Assembly (NCBI GenBank): GCA_021787845.1
Contig: JAJYLH010000038.1
Coordinates: 1 to 56,040, forward strand
DNA length: 56,040 nucleotides
Source: Myxococcales bacterium
GTDB taxonomy: Bacteria; Myxococcota; Myxococcia; Myxococcales; JAJYLH01
Direction: 5' to 3'
The notes under the pieces are model-generated. The model was not told the origin of the DNA, made no database searches, and worked only from the letters and a program-made list of their open reading frames with translations. Each line of letters starts with the position of its first letter. The stretch's first letter is position 1. This document shows positions 1 to 50,795 of the stretch, piece by piece. Both the position numbers and the translations under genes were made by a program.

Positions 1-126
1 CACCCTCGCGCTCGCCCTTCGAGGCCCGCGCATGCTTGCCGTGCTCCATTCATGCTCCGTGGGCGCGGGCACCTCAGGGTGAGCGGATCGGGGACCAAGA
101 CACCTGAGGTGTCTGGATACCCAGTT

Positions 127-420
127 TTTCTAGAAGCCGCCGCCCATTTTCTAGAAGCCGCCGCCCATTTTCTAGAAGCCGCCGCCCATCTTCTAGAAGC
201 CACCGCCCATTTTCTAGAAGCCACCGCCCATTTTCTAGAAGCCACCGCCCATTTTCTAGAAGCCACCGCCCATTTTCTAGAAGCCACCGCCCATTTTCTA
301 GAAGCCACCGCCCATTTTCTAGAAGCCACCGCCGACAAGCCAGAACCCCCCGCCGACAAGCCAGAACCCCCCGCCGACAAGCCAGAACCCCCCGCCGACA
401 AGCCAGAACCCCCACCGACA
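127..420. repeat. 21-bp minisatellite, two blocks
   Basis: Ten units with a 21-bp period carry the core CTAGAAGCCRCCGCCCAT; the CTAG falls at 130, 151, 172, 193, 214, 235, 256, 277, 298 and 319. They pass directly into about four and a half units of a second 21-bp sequence with core GACAAGCCAGAACCCCC. Because 21 is a multiple of three, several frames on both strands stay open across the array; I take this as a by-product and not as a gene. The array lies beyond the 3' end of the permease gene. A short palindrome, AGACACCTGAGGTGTCT, lies just to the left at about 98-114. Confidence 0.9.
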
Positions 421-548
421 AGCCAGGTCGGACCGCCGATTGGTCGAGTTGCCCCGCTGACCGGCCAGATCGCCCCGGGAGACGCCCGTGCCACGGAGGT
501 ATGCCCGGATAGACATGGCACGGAGGGCGCCGGCTCGTTGTTCTCCCG

Positions 549-7455: not shown

Positions 7456-7540
7456 ACCCACCCGAAACGCGCAGAGCCCCAATCGCCGCCGATCGCCCCG
7501 CGCATTACGAGCTCGACCGAAGTGTCGCGCCACGCAGCTC

Positions 7541-8104
7541 CCGATCCGCTCCGCGCAGGCCCCGGTCCACCCCGCGCAGCTCCCGCTCCACTCCGCGCAG
7601 CTTCCGATCCACTCCGCGCAGCTCTCGGTCCACTCCGCGCAGCTCCCGATCTACTCCGCGCAGCTCCCGGTCCACCCCGCGCAGCTCATGATCGCTGTTG
7701 CGCAGTTAGCGGTCCACCCCGCGCAGCTCCCGGTCCACTCCGCGCAGCTCATGATCGCTGTTGCGCAGTTAGCGGTCCACCCCGCGCAGCTCATGATCGC
7801 TGTTGCGCAGTTAGCGGTTCTCTCTGCGCAGCTCCCGGTCCACTCCGCGCAGCTCATGATCGCTGTTGCGCAGTTAGCGGTTCTCTCTGCGCAGCTCCCG
7901 GTCCACTCCGCGCAGCTCATGATCGCTGTTGCGCAGTTAGCGGTTCTCTCTGCGCAGCTCCCGGTCCACTCCGCGCAGTTCATGATCGCTGTTGCGCAGT
8001 TAGCGGTTCTCTCTGCGCAGCTCCCGGTCCACTCCGCGCAGCTCATGATCGCTGTTGCGCAGTTAGCGGTTCTCTCCGCGCAGCTCGGCGTCCGAGTAGC
8101 GCAG
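7541..8104. repeat. 21-bp minisatellite with 63-bp higher-order unit
   Basis: About 27 tandem 21-bp units share a GCGCAG start. The first block repeats CGCGCAGCTCCCGRTCCACT. From about 7680 the array shifts to a three-unit cycle (63 bp) made of units with GCTCATGATCGCTGTTG, GCAGTTAGCGGTTCTCTC and GCTCCCGGTCCACTC. One minus-strand frame gives GVDRELR and NSDHELR heptads but meets TAA in every ENR-type unit, so it is not coding. The other frames are open only because 21 is divisible by three. I treat the array as intergenic. Confidence 0.9.
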
Positions 8105-17962: not shown

Positions 17963-19171
17963 ATGCGCATCCTCCTCGCCGCCCAGGGCTTCCTCGCGGT
18001 GAGCAATGGCCCGAGCGTCTTCGCGAACCGGCTGGCGCGGGGGCTCGCGCAAGCGGGGCACGAGGTGCTGGTGCTGACGCCCTCCGATCGCGGCCGGCCG
18101 CGCCACGAGATGCGGGACGGCATCGCGATTCGCGCGCTGCGATCGGTTCCGCTCGCGCGCGACGCCGGCGTGTGGGTGACCCCGCTCGTCGATCCGTCGA
18201 TCGGGCGGCTCCTCGACGCGTACAAGCCCGACGTCGTCCACCTCCAGGACCACTACCCCACCTCGAGAGCGGTGCTGCATGCCAGCCTGCGTCGCCAGCT
18301 CCCGCGGGTCGCGACCAACCACTTCGTGCCTGAGAACTTCACCGCCGGAGTGCGCGCGCTCGCCCTCGGCCGAAGGCTCGTCACCCGTCTGCTCTGGCGC
18401 GGCGCGATGAACGTGCTCGCCCGAGTCGACCTGGTCGTCGCGCCGACCGCGACCGCCGCCCGGCTGCTCGTCGACCGCGGTTTGAAGGTTCCCGTCGAGG
18501 CGATTTCCTGTGGCGTCGACCTTCAGCGCTTCTCGCCCGAGGTCGCGGGCACCTCCCGGGAACCGCGCGAGATCGGACCGATCGGTCGGATCGGACCGAT
18601 CGGTCTTGTCGGCTCGGCGCGATTCCTCGTCGCCTACGTCGGCCGGCTCGACCGCGAGAAGGAAGTCGACCTCCTCTTCGAGGCTCTCCGTCGCACGAGG
18701 CGCGACGACGTCGTGCTGGTCCTCGCCGGGACCGGACGCGACGAGGCGCGGCTGCGCGCGCTTTCGGCGCCGCTCGGCGCGCGCGTTCGCTTCCTCGGAC
18801 ACGTCGAGCAGGAGCGCCTTGCGGACCTGCTGCGCGCGATGGACCTCTTCGCGATGCCGTGTCGCATCGAGCTTCAGAGCATCGCGACTTTGGAAGCGAT
18901 GGCTTGCGGCCTGCCGGTGCTCGCGGCGAGAGGCGGAGCGCTGCCGGAGCTGGTCGAGGACGGCGTCAACGGCGCGCTGTTTCGGCCCGGCGACGCGGAC
19001 GACGCGGCGAGGAAGCTGGAAGCGCTGCTGGCCACCTCGACCGATCGCGCGGCCCTCGGCGCGGCAAGCATCGAGAGGGCGGCATCTCACGATGTCGCGC
19101 AGACGGTCCGGCGCTACCTGCGGGTGTACGAACGAGCCATCCGCGGTTCGCGCCCAGGCTACAAGACGTAA
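17963..19171 (+). CDS. Glycosyltransferase family 4 protein
   Basis: This 402-residue GT-B enzyme has an N-terminal acceptor domain (GPSVFANRLARGLAQAGHEV; VVHLQDHYPTSRAV) and a C-terminal nucleotide-sugar domain (YVGRLDREKEVDLLFEAL; PCRIELQSIATLEAMACGLP), the GT4 arrangement with the Ex7E-type region. It probably transfers a sugar to a lipid or polysaccharide. A run of GATCGG-type repeats at 18569-18603 codes for IGPIGRIGPIG at the hinge between the two domains, where family members usually have a short loop. The last 13 bases overlap the 3' end of the PHP gene on the other strand. Confidence 0.9.
   Translation: MRILLAAQGFLAVSNGPSVFANRLARGLAQAGHEVLVLTPSDRGRPRHEMRDGIAIRALRSVPLARDAGVWVTPLVDPSIGRLLDAYKPDVVHLQDHYPTSRAVLHASLRRQLPRVATNHFVPENFTAGVRALALGRRLVTRLLWRGAMNVLARVDLVVAPTATAARLLVDRGLKVPVEAISCGVDLQRFSPEVAGTSREPREIGPIGRIGPIGLVGSARFLVAYVGRLDREKEVDLLFEALRRTRRDDVVLVLAGTGRDEARLRALSAPLGARVRFLGHVEQERLADLLRAMDLFAMPCRIELQSIATLEAMACGLPVLAARGGALPELVEDGVNGALFRPGDADDAARKLEALLATSTDRAALGAASIERAASHDVAQTVRRYLRVYERAIRGSRPGYKT
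18569..18603. repeat. GATCGGACCGATCGGTC repeat inside the GT4 gene
   Basis: Two tandem units of the palindromic GGACCGATCGGTCGGATC sequence lie in frame in the glycosyltransferase gene and code for IGPIGRIGPIG. The same sequence type, in five or so units, lies in the non-coding gap at 23438-23505. This indicates spread of a short repeat into a coding region. Confidence 0.7.
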
Positions 19172-20535
19172 ATCGCGTTCGAGTAGATCCACGGATAGTC
19201 GTGAGACAGCAACGCGTCGGCGTCGGCGCCCAGGTCGGGCCTCAAGTGTTCTGGCACCATCCGCACCTCGGCCCGGTAGGCGCCGGGCTCGGTCGGGGCG
19301 AAGGCCACGTCCCCGTCGGCGTGGGCGACCTCGTCCCAACCGCCTTCCTTCGCCTCGAGCAGGCGCACCGTGATGCGCGGCGGAGTCCGTTTCGGATCAA
19401 GGTTCTTCACGTGGGGCCGCTTCACGACCAACATCGGATGGTCGGCGAGGCGGACCGTCGAACCCATCTCCGCGATGTCCGCTCCCACTTGCGCGTGGTA
19501 GTCGAAACCCACGGGGTAGCCCATCACCTCGAACGCGCCGTAGAGACGCTCCGCCAAGAGAGCGCTCTTCAGCGCGCGGTCGTCCCAGGCTCCGTGAGAA
19601 TCGGTTCGGATCAGGAGATGGTTCGAGAACCACGAGTCCATCCGCCGGTAGCTGTCGATGCGCTCCCCGTCCGCCATGAGCTGCGGAAACGAGTTTCGAT
19701 GGGCGTCCGTCGCCATCGTCGTGACGCGATGAACGCCTCGCGCGAGCACCGAGCCCCAGGTCGACAGGTAGTGCGAATCTTCACTGAAGATTTCGAGGAA
19801 GATCAGATCCGGTTTCGGCAGCCCGGGGTCCTTCTCGATGACCCGACCCAGGATGTTCAGCGCCACGTCGCCGCGCATCATCGTGTTGGCGTGGAGGTTG
19901 TACATCTCGAAACCGTCGAGCGGCAGCGTGACGATCTGGTCTACCGTCCAGCCCTCGGTGTGGGCGACCAGGGCCACCGCTCCGGCCGCTTTGAACTGCC
20001 CGATGGCGTCGGCGCTGACCTCGTCGTAGGTGTCGCCGCGCTCCTGAATCGTTCCCGCGACATGGTGCTCCAGGCCCACCGGCATCGTGCCGCTCTCCGT
20101 CCCCGCCATGATCAGCGCGAAGTGCCCGTCCGGACAGGCCATCCAGGAGGCGACCGGGTCGCCGTCGCGAACGACGAGCTTGTCGCCCTGTTGGGCGTCG
20201 TAGAGCAGGACGTCCGGATACTCGTGCTCCGCGAACGTGCCGCGGTGATCGCTAAGGAAGCAGAAATCGTGTTGCACCGCGCACAAGCCGCGCCGGAAAT
20301 CCGCCAGGCAGACCGCGTCGGGCTTGCCGTCCGGCATCGGGTGACCGTCGCAAGCGTCGTGGGAGTAGACGCTGTGCTCGTGGATGAGCCCGCGCACGTC
20401 GAGAAAGCCGCGGGCGTCGGGCTCCTTCGACGAGGGATAGACCGTGCCCACCGTCCAGACCGGCTGCTGCGACGACGACGAACATCCAAGAGCGAAGAGC
20501 AACGCGAAGACCGACGAGAAACGGCGCTGAGGCAT
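19159..20535 (-). CDS. PHP-domain lipoprotein
   Basis: This 458-residue protein starts at ATG 20535, five bases after GAGGAGG, with signal MPQRRFSSVFALLFALGC and a Ser-rich stretch after lipid Cys18. The fold markers of a polymerase-histidinol-phosphatase domain follow: GLIHEHSVYSHDACDG (HxH), AHTEGW and ATDAHRN, with LSDH and EMYNLHAN between. PHP domains bind up to three metals and hydrolyse phosphoesters. A secreted lipoprotein version suggests a phosphatase or phosphodiesterase outside the inner membrane. It stands alone, tail to tail with the glycosyltransferase. Confidence 0.85.
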   Translation of the reverse strand: MPQRRFSSVFALLFALGCSSSSQQPVWTVGTVYPSSKEPDARGFLDVRGLIHEHSVYSHDACDGHPMPDGKPDAVCLADFRRGLCAVQHDFCFLSDHRGTFAEHEYPDVLLYDAQQGDKLVVRDGDPVASWMACPDGHFALIMAGTESGTMPVGLEHHVAGTIQERGDTYDEVSADAIGQFKAAGAVALVAHTEGWTVDQIVTLPLDGFEMYNLHANTMMRGDVALNILGRVIEKDPGLPKPDLIFLEIFSEDSHYLSTWGSVLARGVHRVTTMATDAHRNSFPQLMADGERIDSYRRMDSWFSNHLLIRTDSHGAWDDRALKSALLAERLYGAFEVMGYPVGFDYHAQVGADIAEMGSTVRLADHPMLVVKRPHVKNLDPKRTPPRITVRLLEAKEGGWDEVAHADGDVAFAPTEPGAYRAEVRMVPEHLRPDLGADADALLSHDYPWIYSNAIYVL

Positions 20536-20670
20536 GTCGACCTCCTCGGAATCGAAGCCGCCCGATGATCGGCAGATGCGGCCGAAGACGCAAGCGGCGC
20601 CGGGGACTTCGCGAGCCTTCGACCGCTCTCGCCTCGCGGGATGGGGGAAGCGGTCGGGCACGCCGGCGCG

Positions 20671-21270
20671 TCAGACCGGGTGGATCGCGAGCCCCGAGCG
20701 GCCGGGAAGGCCGTAGCGGCGCACCAGCGTCGCCATCGACATCCACAGCTCCGCCCGCGGCAGGCGCAAGACCCGCCCGAGCGACGGCGCCCGCGCGGCG
20801 AACGCGCGCAGCAGATACCAGGCATAGACGCCATCCAGGAGCGCCGCGGTACTGCCGCGGGCGGAATCGACAGCGATGGCGGTGAAGCCGATGCGCTCCA
20901 AGAGCTTGCGGGTGCCGGTCCCGCGCGACGGGGAGAATGCGCTGCTGACCCCGCGGAGCGCGCGCGCGGGCGAGAACCTCGTGTCGGAGGGCAGGAGCGC
21001 TGCCAGGGCCTTGAGGCTCGCGGTCGCCCGGCGCTCGAACGCCTTGGCCCAGGCGAGGTCGGGGCCCTTCGGCGCCATCGGCGGCACGTGCTCGTTCCAC
21101 AGGTGCAGCTCGACAACCGGATCGCCTGCGCGAATCGTCGCGTCCGGGAGGGCCACCGCGTGGGCCGCCCGCGAAAGACGCACCCGAAACAGCGCCTCTT
21201 CGTCCTGCCAGGGCTCGACGAGACGAAGGCGCGCGCGCATCGCCGCGTCGACGAGACGCCAGGGCTTCAT
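20671..21270 (-). CDS. YkoP-like domain protein
   Basis: This 199-residue soluble protein contains AGDPVVELHLWNEHVPPM, which resembles the 'GD.VVELHLDNE' core of YkoP-like domains, found alone or attached to polysaccharide deacetylases. The enzymatic role, if any, is unknown. Its ATG (21270) overlaps the TGA of the HpnI-like gene by ATGA, so it is the last of a three-gene operon with an HpnK-like deacetylase and an HpnI-like glycosyltransferase, and probably acts on the same lipid. Confidence 0.6.
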   Translation of the reverse strand: MKPWRLVDAAMRARLRLVEPWQDEEALFRVRLSRAAHAVALPDATIRAGDPVVELHLWNEHVPPMAPKGPDLAWAKAFERRATASLKALAALLPSDTRFSPARALRGVSSAFSPSRGTGTRKLLERIGFTAIAVDSARGSTAALLDGVYAWYLLRAFAARAPSLGRVLRLPRAELWMSMATLVRRYGLPGRSGLAIHPV

Positions 21271-22463
21271 CGCGGCACCCCTCGCGACGCCCGAAGCTGC
21301 GCGATGCGCACGGGCAGTCGGGCGCGGGTGGGCGAGGCGCGCCTCAGGCGGCCATCCGCGGTCAGCGGATAAGTCTCGTCCCGCCAGGTGACGCGGCGTC
21401 CGAACGCCCCGGCGACCCACACCGCCGCGGTCTGGAGGTCGCGCAGCGGAAGGAGCAGCAGCGCTTCCAGAGAGGTCGTGTCGTTCGTGCTCTTCGCGAT
21501 GGCGCTCGCGACCATCCACCGCAGCGCGAGCGACCCGGTGAGGAGCGCCCAGCCGAAGGCGGAGCCGCCCAGCGCCACGAGGCAGAGGAGCGCGAGCGGC
21601 GTGGGAAAGGTCAGCCCGTAACCGAGATAGCCCCCCGCCTGGCTCACGCGCGTGCAACGGGCCCAACGCAGCTCGCGCGAAAGGCCCTGGCGGGCGCTCG
21701 TGGAACCGAGGACGCTCTGGACGACGTAGCGGGACAGCTCGACCTTGCGCCCGAGCGCCGCGAGCCGCGAGCCGAGCTGGTAGTCGTCGGCGAGGTGCTC
21801 GCTCACCGCCCGAAAGCCGCCGATGGCTTCCAGGTCCCGCCTTCGGAGCGCCACCGTCGCGCCCATCGCGAAGCGCATCCGCAAGACGTGCCGGGCTACC
21901 ACCACCGCCGGGAGGAAGACGACGCCCATGTGCAGCGCTTCCAGCCGCGCGAAGAGCGACGCCGCTGCCGCCCCCCGATAGGGGCAGGTAACGAGACCGG
22001 TGTCGGGATCCGAGAGCGGTGCCACCACCCGCCGAAGGTAATCGGGGGTCACCCGCATGTCGCTGTCGCTCGCGACCAGCACCTCGTGCCGCGCCGCCTG
22101 CGCGAGCTCGTGTAAGAGCGCCGCCTTGCGGTTGGTCCCCCGCGTGCGCGCGACCACCAGCCGCATCGAAACGTGCGGGAAGGCCCGTTTCAGCCGGGCG
22201 ATCTCCGCCACCGCCGGGTCGAACGGGTCGTCGACGCCGAAGACCAGCTCCATCTCCGGATAGTCCTGACGGCAGAAGCTCGCGAAGTTCTCGAACATCT
22301 CCGGGTCGAGGCCCTTGACCGGTTTGAGAAGCGAGACCGGCGGCCACTCGGCCCGGGTCTCGAACGGCGTCTGGAAGAAGCGGCGCACCAGAATCGCGGC
22401 GATGATCCAGTACGCCCAGGCCGCGAGCGTGAGCGCAATGAGCGCCGCCGCCACGCCCTTCAA
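21267..22463 (-). CDS. hpnI: HpnI-like (GT21) glycosyltransferase
   Basis: This 398-residue membrane glycosyltransferase of the ceramide-glucosyltransferase type has an N-terminal membrane helix, then VSLLKPVKGLDPEMFENF, the D1 motif GVDDPFD, D2 SDSDMRV, D3 HLADDYQLG and the Q/RxxRW motif SRELRWARC, and C-terminal membrane helices. In hopanoid producers HpnI adds N-acetylglucosamine to bacteriohopanetetrol, and HpnK then deacetylates it. I chose the TTG at 22463 because it overlaps the stop of the HpnK-like gene (TTGA). The family is secure; the exact lipid acceptor is inferred from the neighbour. It could also be a ceramide glucosyltransferase. Confidence 0.82.
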   Translation of the reverse strand: MKGVAAALIALTLAAWAYWIIAAILVRRFFQTPFETRAEWPPVSLLKPVKGLDPEMFENFASFCRQDYPEMELVFGVDDPFDPAVAEIARLKRAFPHVSMRLVVARTRGTNRKAALLHELAQAARHEVLVASDSDMRVTPDYLRRVVAPLSDPDTGLVTCPYRGAAAASLFARLEALHMGVVFLPAVVVARHVLRMRFAMGATVALRRRDLEAIGGFRAVSEHLADDYQLGSRLAALGRKVELSRYVVQSVLGSTSARQGLSRELRWARCTRVSQAGGYLGYGLTFPTPLALLCLVALGGSAFGWALLTGSLALRWMVASAIAKSTNDTTSLEALLLLPLRDLQTAAVWVAGAFGRRVTWRDETYPLTADGRLRRASPTRARLPVRIAQLRASRGVPR

Positions 22464-23296
22464 GCCCCGGCGAGCGCGGGGTAGGTGGCGAGCCGGTGCC
22501 CGCGCTCCCCGAGAACGCGGCGGACCCACGGGCTGACGAGCGCCGACAGATCTCCCGGGTTCGGCCCCAGGTCGTCTTCGAACGCCGTCGAGGGATGCAG
22601 GTAGATCTCCGCGGTCGGCGCCGAGACCCGGTCGAGCACCCGAACCAGGGTCGGCTCGTCCATCCGCCCGCTGCGATAGAGGCCGTAGACCCGGGTCGGC
22701 ACCGCGAGCCGCGTCTGGCGCAATCGGGCTTGCGCTCGCCGGCCGAGGACGCTGAGCGCCAGCGCTGGCGCCCAGCCAAGCCTCGCTCCTCCGCACGCGT
22801 TCGCGAGCTCGCGATCGTCACGCGGCACGCGAAAGCCCCGGGCATCGTGGCGCCGGGCCTGCGCGAGGGCGAGGTCCAGCACCGCCGGGAGCAGGTGCAG
22901 GTGCAGGTGCCCGTCGACGTGCGACAGCTTCAAGCCCGTGTCGGAAAAGCGGGCGAACTGCGCGGCGATTTCTCGCGCGAGCTCCCGGCGGGCGGCGGCG
23001 CTCGAGCAGTAGCGGCGGCCCGCGCCAGCCGCGGTGGGCTCGAAGCGCCCGTCGGCGCCGACGAGATGCGGCACCGCTTCTGGGGGCAACGCGGGACGCC
23101 CGTCGGCCAGCACGAGATGCAGCCCGACCGCGAGGTCCGGCGCGCTGCGCGCGAGCGCCACCGCCTCCTCGAAAGCGCTCCCGGTCACCATGAGGCTCGC
23201 GCTCGTCAGGATCCCTTGGCGATGCGCGAGCAGCACCGCTTCGTTCACCGCGGCCGACCGCCCGAAATCGTCGCCATTGACGATGACGCGCGTCAT
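22460..23296 (-). CDS. hpnK: HpnK-like deacetylase (ChbG/YdjC family)
   Basis: This 278-residue protein has VIVNGDDFGRSAAVNEAVLL at the start, SASLMVTG, LAVGLHLVLADGRP and LKLSHVDGHLHLHLLPAV, the metal-binding Asp/His residues of YdjC-family deacetylases. The length and the pairing with an HpnI-like transferase match HpnK, which removes the acetyl group from a glycosylated hopanoid. No squalene-hopene cyclase or HpnH/G/J gene lies in the window, so the hopanoid assignment is contextual. It is the first gene of the trio. Confidence 0.82.
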   Translation of the reverse strand: MTRVIVNGDDFGRSAAVNEAVLLAHRQGILTSASLMVTGSAFEEAVALARSAPDLAVGLHLVLADGRPALPPEAVPHLVGADGRFEPTAAGAGRRYCSSAAARRELAREIAAQFARFSDTGLKLSHVDGHLHLHLLPAVLDLALAQARRHDARGFRVPRDDRELANACGGARLGWAPALALSVLGRRAQARLRQTRLAVPTRVYGLYRSGRMDEPTLVRVLDRVSAPTAEIYLHPSTAFEDDLGPNPGDLSALVSPWVRRVLGERGHRLATYPALAGA

Positions 23297-23437
23297 CGAG
23301 CCCCCGCTTCACGAGCGGCGCTGGCGCTCATGGGCCGCCTCTCGGGCAAGCTGGCGGCAGCGACGGGGCTTTGGCAAGGGCACGAAGAGGGCGCGCCGGC
23401 GGGCCTTCTCTTGGCCGGGCGGTAGGCGCGCACCGCC

Positions 23438-23505
23438 GTCGCGACGATCGGACGGATCGGTCGGATCGGTCGGATCGGACCGATCGGTCCGATCGTCCAG
23501 GCGCA
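23438..23505. repeat. GATCGG tandem repeat
   Basis: A run of GGATCGGTC-type units (GACGGATCGGTCGGATCGGT and so on) ends in the palindrome GGACCGATCGGTCC. It lies in the 235-bp gap between the HpnK-like gene and the MFS gene. The same unit is found inside the GT4 gene at 18569-18603. Confidence 0.8.
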
Positions 23506-23531
23506 CGTTCGCCGGCAGGTCGCGAAGGCGC

Positions 23532-24791
23532 CTAGCCGTTGGCGCGGTGTGGGTCGGCGACCAGGTCCGCCGTTTCGGCCGCGGGCACTGGCGCGTCGAA
23601 CGAAACGCCGCGGGCTTCGGGGCCGAGCGCGATGACGACCGACCCGACGAGCAGGATCGCGACCGCCAGGGTGCCCATCGCGGTCGAGTAGGAGATGTGC
23701 CTGGCGAGCACCGCCTCGACCGCCGGGATGCCCGCCGCGATCAGGACGCCGAGCTGGTAGGCGAAACCGGGGAAGAACCCCCGCAGCGCTCCTGGAGAGA
23801 GCTCGTTCAAATGCGCTGGAATCACGCCCCAGGCGCCCTGGACCATGAACTGGAGGGCGAAGGCGCCGGCGACGATCACCGCCAGGCGAGGGCTGAAGGC
23901 CCAGGCCGGCACCACCAGGACCCCCAGGAGCGCCGCCGCTACCATCGTCCGCCGCCGGCCCCAGCGGTTCGACAGCCCGCCCACCACCAGCCCGCCGAGG
24001 ATGGCGCCGACCATCGAGATCACGGTGACGAACGAGACCTGGCTCTGGGTCAGGTGCCGCTGGGTCTTGAGGAGCGTCGGGAACATGTCCTGGGTGCCGT
24101 GCGACATCAGGTTCAGCATCGCCATCAGCGCCACGAGGTAGAGGAACCGGCGCCAGTTTCGCACCACGGTGCGGCCGTAGGTCGACCACGGGGCGCGGCT
24201 CTTCTCCCAGACGGCGGACTCCTTGACCCGGGAGCGCACGAAGAGGGCGAGCAGGGCGGGAGCGCCGCCGAGGAAGAAGAGCGCTCTCCACCTCAGATGC
24301 GGCGCGAAGTGGTAGACGACCGGGTAGGCGATGGCGGCGAGGAGGTAACCGAAAGCGTAGCCCTCCTGCAGGAGCCCGGAGAGCAGGCCGCGCCACTTCG
24401 CCGGCACCGACTCGAGCGCGAGCGACGCCCCGACGCCCCATTCGCCGCCCATCCCGATGCCGTACAAGAGGCGCAAGCCGAAGAAGACCTTGTAGCTCGG
24501 CGCGAGGCCGGAGAAGACCTCGACGATGGCGTAGAAGACGACGTCGATCATCAGCGGCAGGCGGCGGCCGAAGCGGTCGGCGATGACGCCGAACAGGAGC
24601 GCTCCCACCGGCCGCATCACCAGGCTCGCGGTCAAGGTCAGCGCGACGGCCGCCTTGTCGGTGTGGAAGTCGCGGGCGACGTCGGTGAGGACCAGCGTCA
24701 GGACGAAGAAGTCGAAGGCATCCATCGTCCAGCCGAGGAAGCTGGCGATCATCGCGTTGGTGGCGTTGGCCCGGTCCGTGCGCGCGCTCAT
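23532..24791 (-). CDS. MFS transporter, sialate:H+/carboxylate type (SHS-like)
   Basis: This 419-residue major facilitator has 12 hydrophobic segments. WTMDAFDFFVLTLVLTDVAR in helix 1, GVIADRFGRRLPLM between helices 2 and 3, and YGIGMGGEWGVGASLALESV in helix 4-5 are typical of the Jen1/NanT-like lactate, pyruvate or sialate transporters. The second half has GLSNRWGRRRTM at the repeated A-type motif. The start at ATG 24791 gives a natural short N-terminus; the upstream in-frame extension reads through a repeat. It probably imports a small organic acid. Confidence 0.88.
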   Translation of the reverse strand: MSARTDRANATNAMIASFLGWTMDAFDFFVLTLVLTDVARDFHTDKAAVALTLTASLVMRPVGALLFGVIADRFGRRLPLMIDVVFYAIVEVFSGLAPSYKVFFGLRLLYGIGMGGEWGVGASLALESVPAKWRGLLSGLLQEGYAFGYLLAAIAYPVVYHFAPHLRWRALFFLGGAPALLALFVRSRVKESAVWEKSRAPWSTYGRTVVRNWRRFLYLVALMAMLNLMSHGTQDMFPTLLKTQRHLTQSQVSFVTVISMVGAILGGLVVGGLSNRWGRRRTMVAAALLGVLVVPAWAFSPRLAVIVAGAFALQFMVQGAWGVIPAHLNELSPGALRGFFPGFAYQLGVLIAAGIPAVEAVLARHISYSTAMGTLAVAILLVGSVVIALGPEARGVSFDAPVPAAETADLVADPHRANG

Positions 24792-24861
24792 TGCGCCCGA
24801 GGATACATCGCGAACAAGCTTCCCTGTTCGCTCAGGTTGCCCCCAGCCTTGCCCGCGAGCC

Positions 24862-24990
24862 CTGATCAACCAAGCCGCGAAAGGCTCGCGCCGCGCGCAG
24901 ATTCGACGCCGCGCAGCAAGTCAGTAGTGCCGGCCCTCTGGCCTGGCATGCCAACGATCGCGATCGTGCCGGGCCAGAGGGCGAGCCGGA
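24862..24990. repeat. Interspersed repeats upstream of the MFS gene
   Basis: Positions 24862-24918 repeat the sequence at 8334-8392 (core CGAAAGGCTCGCGC). They are followed at about 24925-24985 by the palindromic AGTGCCGGCCCTC repeat and its partner GCCGGGCCAGAGGGC, as at 8562-8630. The two repeat types are found near each other at both sites. Nothing coding was seen here or in the remaining bases to 25080. Confidence 0.75.
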
Positions 24991-25080
24991 TCGAATGGGT
25001 TGCGGGTGAAAGCCCCGCGCAATGCGAAGCGGGAAGCCCGTCACCGCGAAGACGGCGGGCGCCCTGGCTGGCCCAGTGGC

Positions 25081-25776
25081 TCACCACCACCACCGGCGCG
25101 ACCGCCAGGCGCTTCGGGGCAGGAACAGCACCGCGTCGACCACGGCCCAGAAGAAGCCGACATTCCAGGCGGGCGACTTCGTCTTGCCGAAGAAGAGGAG
25201 CAGCACCGGTACCGCTATCATCGCCCCCGCGATCGCCCAGGCGACCCTCCCATCGGGCAGCTTGGACAACAGCTTCCACCCGATGCCGGGGCCGCCGCCA
25301 TAAGAGCCGGTGCCGTAGCTGCCAAGGCCGATGTCGCGCCTGGTCTGCGCGCCGACCTCTCGCGCGAGCTCCTGGCCCAGGGCGAGGCGCGCGTTCTGGT
25401 CCATCGCCTGGACGCGGTTCTCGTCGGTGGTGCGCGCCCACAGGCGCTCGTTGTAGGCGCGCTGCTCGGCGGTGTTCAGGAGCGCGCTGCAGTGGAGGCA
25501 GCGCGGCGCCTGGACGTTGTTGTCCTGGCCGCAGATGCAGCAGCGGACGAAGGGCTGGCCGGAGCTTCGCGCCAGCTCGAGGCTGGAATCCGCGGAGGGC
25601 GCGGGCGGGAGCGCATCGGTGAACCGCTCGGCCGCGAGGGGCGGCGGCGCTTCCGGGGCAGGCTGGCGCTCCAGCTCGACCTGCTGGAACCGCTCCGCCC
25701 GCGCGTCGTCGGGCCCGGCCGGCGCCTCGTCAGGGCGGGCTCGCTCCAAATGCCGAAACCGACTCTCGACGCTCAT
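25081..25776 (-). CDS. Zinc-ribbon membrane protein
   Basis: 231 residues. A Pro/Glu-rich N-terminal half leads to a four-cysteine zinc ribbon (CCICGQDNNVQAPRCLHCSA), a helical segment (LALGQELAREVGAQTRRD), a Gly/Ser/Tyr-rich piece and two membrane helices near the C-terminus. The start at ATG 25776 lies just after the end of the AAA ATPase gene (stop at 25784), so the two are probably co-transcribed. I do not recognise a family. A tie to the ATPase in handling membrane proteins is only inference. Confidence 0.7.
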   Translation of the reverse strand: MSVESRFRHLERARPDEAPAGPDDARAERFQQVELERQPAPEAPPPLAAERFTDALPPAPSADSSLELARSSGQPFVRCCICGQDNNVQAPRCLHCSALLNTAEQRAYNERLWARTTDENRVQAMDQNARLALGQELAREVGAQTRRDIGLGSYGTGSYGGGPGIGWKLLSKLPDGRVAWAIAGAMIAVPVLLLFFGKTKSPAWNVGFFWAVVDAVLFLPRSAWRSRRWWW

Positions 25777-27490: not shown

Positions 27491-28585
27491 TTAAGCGGTC
27501 GCCTTGAAGTCGAGAAGCTCGACAGGGCGGGAATCGACCGCGAACGTGACCGCTTCGCGGAAGCCCTCGGCGTCGCCGCCGACTTGGAGCGGCATCGGGC
27601 GGTCGAACTCGAGCCGCACCTTCTGCGTGAGAAAATCGAGGATGCCGGTGCGCGGCGTGCGGCCCTTCCAGATGGCGCCCATGTGGCGCACCATCTGGGG
27701 AACGGTCAGCGCGCTCAAGCGCAGGTGCATCCGTCCTTCCGCCTTGCGCGCGTGCGGGAAGATCTTGAACCCGAAGCCGTAGTTGGGGACGGTGCCGGCG
27801 GCGACCAGGCGCAACGGGCCCTGGAAGAGGATTTCGCCCTTCTCGATCGGCCGCCCGACCGGCCGGCCGTCCGGCGCGAGCTGCTGCGCCGGTTCGCCTT
27901 CGTTGGTGATGAGGACGTTCGCGGGCTTGCGCTCGAGGAGCACCGCCGGGATGCTCCGCCCGGCGATGGCGAGCAAGTAGCCCGGGCCGCCGGACCCGAA
28001 GGCCGAGAACGGGGTGCCGCGGAACTTGCGGCTGACCGTCACGTAATCGTTGATGATCCGCGCGTCGACGCCGACGCCCGTGAACGGCGCGAGCTTGCCG
28101 TCGACGTCGATGAGGTGGATCTGGTGGGTCTGGCGGACGTCGCCGGCGCGGGCGCGCAGGATGTCCTCGACCACCCCGACCGGCCGGGGGCTCGCTCCGG
28201 TCATCCCGGCGATCGAGTTGCCGGTCCCGAGGTGCAGCACGCCGAACTTCGGCGGCGGCACCGGGCGCGGCTCCAGCTTGAGAACGGCGCCGCCCCGTGC
28301 GACCACCGGTCCCGTCGTCATGCACTGCGAGAGGACTTCGTTGACGTAGCCGACGAAGGTGCCGTCGCCGCCGCCGGTCAGGAGCGTGGTGTAGCCGCGG
28401 GCCAGCACCTCGCGGGTGATCGCCCGGGCATCGTCGAGGGTGCGGGAGAAGAAGACGTCCTCTTCCGGCACGAACCGGGTGATTTCCCGACGCATCCGGT
28501 CGTTGACGCTCTTCGCGTTGGCGTTGAGCAGCACCGCCACCTGCTCGCCGCGCCTTCCGCCGTGGATCGCTCTGAGGGTCGCCAT
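27491..28585 (-). CDS. Diacylglycerol/sphingosine kinase-like lipid kinase
   Basis: This 364-residue protein of the DAGK catalytic superfamily has AVLLNANAKSVNDRMRREIT (the N-terminal NP/NA motif), TLLTGGGDGTFVGYVNEVL with the GGGDGT nucleotide-binding signature, GVLHLGTGNSIAG and GFGFKIFPHA. These enzymes phosphorylate lipid hydroxyls using ATP, as YegS/BmrU relatives do. The start at ATG 28585 follows an AGGGACGG sequence. It is a single-gene unit with its own terminator. Confidence 0.85.
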   Translation of the reverse strand: MATLRAIHGGRRGEQVAVLLNANAKSVNDRMRREITRFVPEEDVFFSRTLDDARAITREVLARGYTTLLTGGGDGTFVGYVNEVLSQCMTTGPVVARGGAVLKLEPRPVPPPKFGVLHLGTGNSIAGMTGASPRPVGVVEDILRARAGDVRQTHQIHLIDVDGKLAPFTGVGVDARIINDYVTVSRKFRGTPFSAFGSGGPGYLLAIAGRSIPAVLLERKPANVLITNEGEPAQQLAPDGRPVGRPIEKGEILFQGPLRLVAAGTVPNYGFGFKIFPHARKAEGRMHLRLSALTVPQMVRHMGAIWKGRTPRTGILDFLTQKVRLEFDRPMPLQVGGDAEGFREAVTFAVDSRPVELLDFKATA

Positions 28586-28962
28586 CCGTCCCTGCCTCTC
28601 GCGGGGTGGTGCGTTCGTGCCCCGCGTCACAGCAAGCCTCGGGCCAATGCCTGACGCGGCGCGGCGGGCGTGGCCTCCAAACCGGAAATAGAGCAGAAAA
28701 ATTCGGCGCTTGGGGTCCGACCGGGCGGGCGAGCGCGACGGTCGACCGCTTGCTGTCTCGGCCCCGATTTCGGCTACGACGCTTCGCGGCGTGCGTCGCG
28801 TGCTATGCGGGAGCCCGCCGGGCGAAGCTCGGTCAGCCTCGCCGGCGGTCGGACCGAGCGGTCGGTTCCGCCTGAATCGGTCCGGTCACGCGGGCGACGG
28901 TCGAGGGTCCGAGCGGGCCGAAGAGCCCAGGCGCCAGGTCGCGCCATCCGCGACGCTTCGCG
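28586..28962. other. Divergent intergenic region
   Basis: No gene seen between the lipid kinase and the dnaK promoter. It includes GGTCGGACCGAGCGGTCGG near 28848, a degenerate relative of the GATCGG-type palindrome. Confidence 0.5.
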
Positions 28963-44715: not shown

Positions 44716-44775
44716 ACGCGCGCGGGCTCCACTGCGGCGGTACGTCCGTGCGCTCGTGTCGCCTGTACCCGGGCA

Positions 44776-44890
44776 CTCCCGTGCCCAGCTCCAAGCACTC
44801 CCGTGCCCAGCTCCAAGCACTCCCGTGCCCAGCTCCAAGCACTCCCGTGCCCAGCTCCAAGCACTCCCGTGCCCAGCTCCAAGTGCGCCA
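44776..44890. repeat. 22-bp tandem repeat
   Basis: Five near-identical units with a 22-bp period carry the core GTGCCCAGCTCCAAGCACTC (GTGCCCAG at 44781, 44803, 44825, 44847 and 44869). The unit is half of the palindrome GGGCACTCCCGTGCCC joined to CAGCTCCAAG, so the array appears to have grown from an end of the neighbouring hairpin element. There are no spacers, so it is not CRISPR. Confidence 0.9.
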
Positions 44891-50480: not shown

Positions 50481-50627
50481 GAGACGGGTATCTGCTCCTG
50501 CCCCTCGCGGCCTCGACCTCAGCACGGCGGCGCTGCTCGAACGCACCGCGACGCTCGTCGATCGCACCGCGTCCCGCAAATAACGTGATCCCTCGTCCCT
50601 CAAGTTTCGTGCGCACGCCCACAGTCG

Positions 50628-50795
50628 CACTCCAACGCTCGTCGATCGCACTCCAATGCTCGTCGATCGCACTCCAACGCTCCCCGATTGCACTCCAACG
50701 CTCCTCGATCGCACTCCAATGTTCCCCGATCGCAGTCCAACGCTCCCCGATCGCACTCCAACACTCGTCGATCGCACTCCAACGCTCGTGCAGCG
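50628..50795. repeat. 21-bp minisatellite
   Basis: Eight units with a 21-bp period of the form CACTCCAACGCTCGTCGATC, with variants CTCCCCGATC and ATGCTCGTC. Minus-strand frames give heptads such as LECDRRA or ERWSAID. Units partly resemble those of the array at 7541-8104 (GCGATC..GAGC on the minus strand). No start, ribosome site or continuing gene supports coding. Confidence 0.88.

Follow-up and report, generated by a model that had tools for sequence, protein, structure and literature searches.

Which lipid is modified by two enzymes of the hopanoid glucosamine branch when hopanoid synthesis is not detected in the genome that encodes them? The question is raised by three adjoining genes on contig JAJYLH010000038.1 of a Myxococcales bacterium (assembly GCA_021787845.1). 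This contig, designated C146 here, was analyzed at its full length of 56,040 nucleotides and is referred to as the window. The genes encode an HpnK-type deacetylase, an HpnI-type glycosyltransferase and a YkoP-domain protein (together, the trio). We propose, with confidence slightly better than even, that they form an aminosugar-lipid operon, in which the N-acetylglucosamine (GlcNAc) transferase/deacetylase pair has been diverted to a non-hopanoid membrane lipid and YkoP serves as an accessory protein. The genes are arranged as follows.

22460-23296, minus strand: HpnK/YdjC-type N-deacetylase P0001, first gene of the trio (278 amino acids, ATG start; TIGR03473, PF04794).
21267-22463, minus strand: HpnI-type GT21/GT2 glycosyltransferase P0002, middle gene (398 amino acids, TTG start; TIGR03472, PF13506).
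20671-21270, minus strand: YkoP-domain protein P0003, third gene (199 amino acids, ATG start; PF22790).

The sequence-only reading had placed the trio at 20671-23296 with two four-base overlaps. This span is exact, and all three minus-strand open reading frames (ORFs) are present. The stop of HpnK and the start of HpnI share TTGA (22460-22463), and the stop of HpnI and the start of YkoP share ATGA (21267-21270). The TTG start of HpnI is assigned by taking the overlap with the HpnK stop at face value.

The family assignments of the three proteins are far beyond chance. HpnK scores 266.8 bits against the NCBI curated model TIGR03473 (cut-off 232.6) and 216.7 bits against the Pfam YdjC family (PF04794), and the motifs DDFG, GLH and HVDGHLH, which we take to be its metal ligands, are all present. 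HpnI scores 381.8 bits against the TIGR03472 equivalog model (cut-off 310) and 160.2 bits against Pfam GT21 (PF13506), with the motifs DSD, ADDY and RELRW in place. The motifs of both enzymes are taken to be catalytic. A phmmer search of HpnI against solved structures finds ceramide glucosyltransferases (E 2.5e-29). YkoP matches Pfam PF22790 at 42.4 bits (cut-off 27, E 5.7e-11). The assignments made in the sequence-only reading are therefore confirmed, two above curated cut-offs and the third above the Pfam cut-off. The family scores and the motifs also uphold its suggestion that these genes form an operon of their own, which would add and deacetylate GlcNAc and in which YkoP is joined to the pair. 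A fold model of P0002 alone was too poor for use (predicted local distance difference test score, pLDDT, 44.6).

The enzymatic logic of GlcNAc addition and deacetylation is well supported. We infer the sugar donor, the acceptor, the order of the steps and the role of YkoP as follows. HpnI, presumably a membrane-bound GT21 enzyme with its active site facing the cytoplasm, would move GlcNAc from UDP-GlcNAc onto a hydroxyl of a membrane lipid, for which a glycerolipid (phosphatidylglycerol or diacylglycerol, for example) is by analogy the most probable candidate. Its hydropathy profile shows a hydrophobic segment at the N-terminus and more such stretches further along. HpnK and YkoP are probably cytoplasmic, since neither has a hydrophobic segment in its profile. 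HpnK, as a soluble, metal-dependent enzyme of the YdjC type, would deacetylate the sugar, so that the head group becomes a glucosamine with a positive charge, and YkoP may assist the synthesis-and-translocation step at the cytoplasmic face. The product, a glucosaminyl glycerolipid, would by the same analogy lower the negative charge of the membrane.

Published systems provide the basis for this analogy. In the hopanoid branch, bacteriohopanetetrol (BHT) is converted to BHT-GlcNAc, BHT-glucosamine and the cyclitol ether through HpnI, HpnK and HpnJ (PMC12583986, PMC5462960). The trio has both of the first two families above curated cut-offs, and the same chemistry is expected (PMC12583986). In Pseudomonas aeruginosa, GpgSDF adds GlcNAc to a membrane lipid, followed by deacetylation to glucosaminyl phosphatidylglycerol, and its third gene encodes a predicted flippase (PMC12713373). 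The likeness lies in a glycosyltransferase, a deacetylase and a third gene in one predicted operon, whereas the families are GT4 (GpgS), COG3233 (GpgD) and a UPF0104 flippase (GpgF), as compared to GT21, YdjC and YkoP in the trio (PMC12713373). HexSDF of Clostridioides difficile follows an analogous hexosamine route to an aminohexosyl glycolipid, also with a predicted flippase as the third gene (PMC10128005). The logic of synthase, deacetylase and flippase is similar here, with differences in the components (monogalactosyldiacylglycerol-synthase-like protein, polysaccharide deacetylase and MprF-like flippase) and in the host, which is Gram-positive (PMC10128005). Compared by published family names only, the trio is taken to work like these two systems and is not filed as a member of either.

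The sequence-only reading gave the acceptor as a hopanoid or other lipid, and noted no other hopanoid gene nearby. In the assembly (6.24 Mb in 153 contigs; completeness 98.17%, contamination 0.33%), neither the N-terminal family of squalene-hopene cyclase (SHC; PF13249) nor squalene/phytoene synthase (PF00494) has a match. Among 14 control genomes, the SHC search gave a match in one (Bacillus subtilis) and the squalene/phytoene synthase search in seven. The HpnH model has 18 hits in the genome, none over the cut-off (best 46.1 versus 225.05 bits) and none on the window contig; it has matches in all 14 controls, over the cut-off in none of them. The earlier remark on the vicinity stands for SHC, squalene/phytoene synthase and HpnH, none of which is found on the contig, while HpnJ, HpnG and HpnA were not searched for. 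Without SHC, squalene/phytoene synthase or HpnH above its cut-off, and with YkoP added, the trio and its genome differ from the known hopanoid branch. The sequence-only reading had named absence of hopanoids and of SHC from the genome as its refutation, and the genomic half of this is what the assembly, which is not closed, shows. The assembly thus gives no support to a hopanoid as the acceptor, and it is the "other lipid" part of the earlier claim that survives.

Bin contamination was considered as a source of the odd gene set and rejected, the reported contamination being 0.33%. The tetranucleotide correlations of four window pieces with four other stretches of the same genome are 0.63-0.88 (0.66-0.74 for the piece with the trio). 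Those with four stretches of foreign genomes are 0.40-0.73 (0.40-0.53 for the trio piece), lower for each piece than with its own genome.

The third protein was examined through its distribution and its neighbors. YkoP is found in none of the 98 other genomes of the order sample and in none of the 194 other genomes sampled from its own phylum. A scan of named genomes gives five relatives with 33-40% identity, all in metagenome-assembled genomes (MAGs), labeled as Anaerolineae (locus L008), Chloroflexi (L009) and Proteobacteria (L010-L012). In the phylum of the L008 genome, taken as Chloroflexota, 71 of 400 genomes match YkoP, 70 of them over the cut-off. No relatives were found in plasmids, viral contigs or PHROGs families.

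The neighborhoods of 45 YkoP loci were surveyed, comprising 40 hand-picked from the 71 Chloroflexota-sample genomes (20 lower-scoring and 20 higher-scoring) and the five named loci. In 30 of the 45, the gene directly upstream of YkoP, or fused to it, encodes an MFS transporter (17 loci), a GT2 glycosyltransferase (8) or a small EamA-like protein (5); the other 15 have none of these, including L057, for which only 198 upstream bases are available. A Pfam run on 30 proteins confirms MFS at 11 of the 17 loci and GT2 at 2 of the 8. In L076, L077 and L080, the MFS protein carries the YkoP domain as an in-frame fusion at its C-terminus, and MFS is a separate upstream ORF in L054, L058, L059, L061, L063, L065, L069 and L083. 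The label "EamA-like" is based on mutual similarity of the ORFs, because the Pfam matches are below the cut-off of 28.2 bits (L008, 24.7; L072, 25.7; L073, 24.3) or missing (L056). Upstream genes that do not fit are a transposase (L068), an AlkZ-like gene (L079), a PLD-type gene (L055), PTA/MaoC (L064) and one with no match (L084). Further than 3 kb from YkoP, 299,066 bases hold 2 MFS, 1 GT2, 2 GT4, 1 PIG-L and no EamA genes, counts that underestimate unrelated family members because the surveyed loci were also the source of the profiles.

The locus in L008 has the order GNAT-type ORF, GT4, PIG-L (GlcNAc-PI de-N-acetylase), EamA-like ORF and YkoP. In L010-L012, cyclopropane-synthase-like and geranylgeranyl-reductase-like genes are located upstream of YkoP, and L012 has in addition an HpnB-like GT2 (190.6 bits, cut-off 379.25) and an AI-2E transporter. 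The complete row in L012 (5306-10606), namely cyclopropane-synthase-like, geranylgeranyl-reductase-like, HpnB-like GT2, AI-2E and YkoP, recurs in part in L010 and L011, and these MAGs bear SHC.

Among the papers listed for YkoP function, just one, on B. subtilis, was found to name the protein, where it belongs to the S477-ykoP operon and is given as of "unknown function" in the excerpts available (PMC6212828). Excerpts of papers on B. subtilis YkoS/YkoT carry no mention of YkoP or YkoN (PMC5836110, PMC11081497). B. subtilis served as the search control and does have a YkoP-domain protein, and no link of that protein to lipids was found, in which it differs from the role proposed here. We assume that ykoN lies close to ykoP in B. 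subtilis, and a 2007 paper, going by its title, reportedly tied YkoN to a new phospholipid.

The leading rival explanation, which we regard as rather unlikely, is an ordinary BHT-glucosamine branch in a hopanoid producer, with the remaining pathway lost from the assembly and YkoP as an addition. The scores of HpnI and HpnK above curated cut-offs are as expected for such a branch, and the other genomes with HpnI favor it. Among the 99 genomes of the order sample, HpnI exceeds its cut-off in three, the genome studied here, G043 and G062. The latter two both carry SHC, for which matches are found in 49 of the 99 (48 over the cut-off). In the sample of 398 genomes from the phylum of G197 (the genome of L010; phylum taken as Pseudomonadota), HpnI exceeds its cut-off in 18, and all 18 have SHC, as compared to 49 of the 398 overall (Fisher p 1.7e-18); scoring there was limited to the top 4 or 5 first-look candidates of each genome, and HpnI or SHC may be missed. 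In a separate alignment, the row of L018 was set aside because its frame was wrong. SHC thus accompanies HpnI in all 20 of the other sampled genomes where HpnI exceeds its cut-off, and the present genome is the sole exception among 21. A pair in a genome without SHC is not described in the excerpts of the hpnI/hpnK literature examined, which do describe Methylocella with hpnI, lacking both hpnJ and hpnK and without BHT-GlcNAc (PMC12583986).

Of the relatives found, G043 and G062 have the nearest HpnK-HpnI pairs (53% identity for HpnK, 56-57% for HpnI). In G062, the pair is located inside a hopanoid cluster. It is preceded by HpnA (455 bits, cut-off 367.65), a type 2 isopentenyl diphosphate (IPP) isomerase (351.5 bits, cut-off 281.3), an ORF of CrtI/HpnE-like type that stays under the cut-offs, and SHC (623.9 bits, cut-off 431.1). 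The pair in G043 is near a contig end, with SHC on a different contig, so that a hopanoid neighborhood is seen for only one of the two nearest relatives. The pair of the trio adjoins YkoP, whereas that of G062 adjoins HpnA, IPP isomerase and SHC. In a tree of HpnI (31 rows, 30 of them different; root not known), the window protein joins G043 and G062, both from SHC-bearing genomes (100/99), and lies outside the 20-row HpnI group of the G197 phylum sample (99/93), with three flagged long branches making parts of the tree unsure. This position, with the pairs of its own order and apart from the 20 HpnI of the G197 phylum, may be a further difference between the trio and the hopanoid branch described in the literature.

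Several points weigh against our proposal. The family membership of HpnI by default predicts the hopanoid BHT as the acceptor. As hopanoid genes cluster, a single assembly gap could account for the absence of SHC, squalene synthase and HpnH alike, and with 153 contigs and 98.17% completeness such a gap is a serious alternative. The HpnH absence is without a positive control, because the model exceeds its cut-off in no control genome. The 20 of 20 pairing of HpnI with SHC makes the present genome a clear exception, and it also makes a hidden hopanoid cluster more likely. In addition, YkoP is not tied to hopanoid absence, because SHC exceeds its cut-off in three of the five named YkoP genomes (those of L010-L012; not those of L008 and L009) and G197 also has HpnI over the cut-off. 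In G197, the 4-kb HpnI locus and the 20-kb YkoP locus do not overlap (100-base probe). The sequence-only reading had proposed checking the co-occurrence of YkoP with hpnIK, and this search came back empty, with no relative of HpnI or HpnK in any of the 45 other YkoP neighborhoods (blastp with P0001 and P0002, E 1e-6); the exact trio is therefore seen only here. Finally, GpgSDF and HexSDF use other enzyme families, and support the logic of the route and not its substrate.

On the other side of the balance, SHC, squalene/phytoene synthase and HpnH over its cut-off are all undetected, though clustering of the genes would make these absences dependent on one another. The 56-kb contig holds no searched hopanoid gene except the pair, and YkoP occurs in none of the hpn-type loci compared. 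As a judgment and not a calculation, true absence of the pathway appears roughly twice as probable as an assembly gap.

There is only a slight chance that the pair acts on a lipid-linked or free saccharide, such as an undecaprenyl-phosphate sugar or a chito-oligosaccharide, and not on a membrane lipid as such. HpnK does match the chitin disaccharide deacetylase model, though its 115.7 bits are below the cut-off (227), and it matches the solved structure of a chito-oligosaccharide deacetylase (E 1.6e-21). However, both proteins are fitted far better by the HpnK and HpnI models, and HpnI belongs to GT21, a type that glycosylates lipids.

A ceramide acceptor, as for the GT21 ceramide glucosyltransferases that are the nearest solved structures to HpnI and share its Pfam family, is the least probable of all, because no serine palmitoyltransferase over the cut-off is found (best 295.3 bits versus 640) among the 8 strongest of the 12 PF00155 matches of the genome, the 4 weakest (at most 41.7 bits) being left out. 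Two of the 8 are of the acyltransferase type, Kbl (617.8 bits, cut-off 460) and BioF (427 bits, cut-off 426.45).

A bolder reading of YkoP than the accessory role that we retain is that it is a GNAT-like catalytic protein or lipid-head-group handler, which would attach a group to the freed amine or present the lipid to a flippase, giving an undescribed N-modified glucosaminyl lipid. We consider this improbable. In an alignment of 43 YkoP sequences (L064, L071 and L091 were left out, though kept in the count of 45 loci), His56 is invariant (43/43) and Asn59 is present in 41. P0003 has the motif LHLWNEHVPPM, and a similar stretch is common to its subgroup of 11 YkoP sequences. An AlphaFold model of YkoP, built from six sequences only, has a mean pLDDT of 71.7. 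In Foldseek, 9 of its first 10 matches are of the GNAT type (best E 0.04, TM-score at most 0.37 there), with acyltransferase entries with octanoyl-CoA at ranks 3 and 5, one of them also with teicoplanin; lower rows include P450s and methyltransferases. VIA-align gives Z scores of 6.2-8.4 across the 50 rows listed, where values below 8 may reflect a common arrangement, and 48 of the 50 titles are ones that we take to denote GNAT-fold proteins, while two titles do not say. The rows include an acyltransferase crystallized with decanoyl-CoA (4mfz, Z 7.7). We believe that this enzyme acylates a glucosamine after GlcNAc deacetylation, which would parallel the trio.

Two findings speak against this reading. 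The motif [QR]xxGx[GA], which we take to mark the acyl-CoA loop of GNAT proteins, is missing from P0003, and only 1 of the 43 members has it within the aligned region. The 43 members match 10 Pfam families between them, and none of these is a GNAT family. Searches of the sequence and profiles against solved structures give chance-level or no matches (best GNAT-type match of P0003, E 0.97), and the model has no match with E below 0.001 in a viral fold library. Under the bolder reading, the frequent MFS-YkoP pairs and fusions would be flippase-transferase units, for which MprF is a precedent.

The wider surroundings of the trio in the window include the following genes.

23532-24869, minus strand (that of the trio): MFS transporter (PF00083/PF07690), with a likelier ATG start near 24791.
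19159-20661, minus strand: ORF downstream of YkoP, with a probable ATG near 20535, a lipoprotein-like N-terminus by eye and no Pfam match.
17963-19171, plus strand: GT4 glycosyltransferase, convergent with the trio region.
27491-28630, minus strand (that of the trio): diacylglycerol-kinase-like gene, a few genes upstream of the trio.

The MFS gene is the upstream neighbor of HpnK, at a distance of 235 bases, and from this position it might be a transport partner for the trio. Its product weakly resembles the YkoP-linked MFS group (E 1.7e-8). Promoter and terminator scans over 19000-25200 found none.

A 9-base tandem repeat of the GATCGGTCG type is located at 23446-23495, between the MFS gene and HpnK, and recurs at 18571-18605 within the GT4 gene. 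A 14-base core of this repeat has 16 near-matches in the window, with 1.33 expected. Tandem arrays of 21-, 22- and 63-base units are found at window positions 126-426, 7533-8086, 44773-44883 and 50625-50789.

Elsewhere in the genome, the HpnI model has six matches besides that of the trio (seven in all), each below the cut-off. On contig C99 (locus L013), the gene for an HpnI-like glycosyltransferase (237 bits) precedes one for an RND protein of HpnN-like type (226.6 bits, cut-off 751.85), and on C37 (L015) another adjoins an MmpL3-like RND protein (344.2 bits, cut-off 1400). Both glycosyltransferase/RND pairs are below curated cut-offs throughout, in a genome without detectable hopanoid genes.

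For YkoP, the survey provides a first functional context, with glycosyltransferases, transporters and, at a single locus, one N-deacetylase as neighbors. Derivatives of hopanoids serve as biomarkers, and genes including hpnI and hpnK are used to predict which organisms make them (PMC12583986). An hpnI/hpnK pair above curated cut-offs, in a genome where hopanoid synthesis is not detected, is a warning that the presence of these genes may be insufficient proof of the lipid, and the trio offers a test of how such enzymes switch acceptor.

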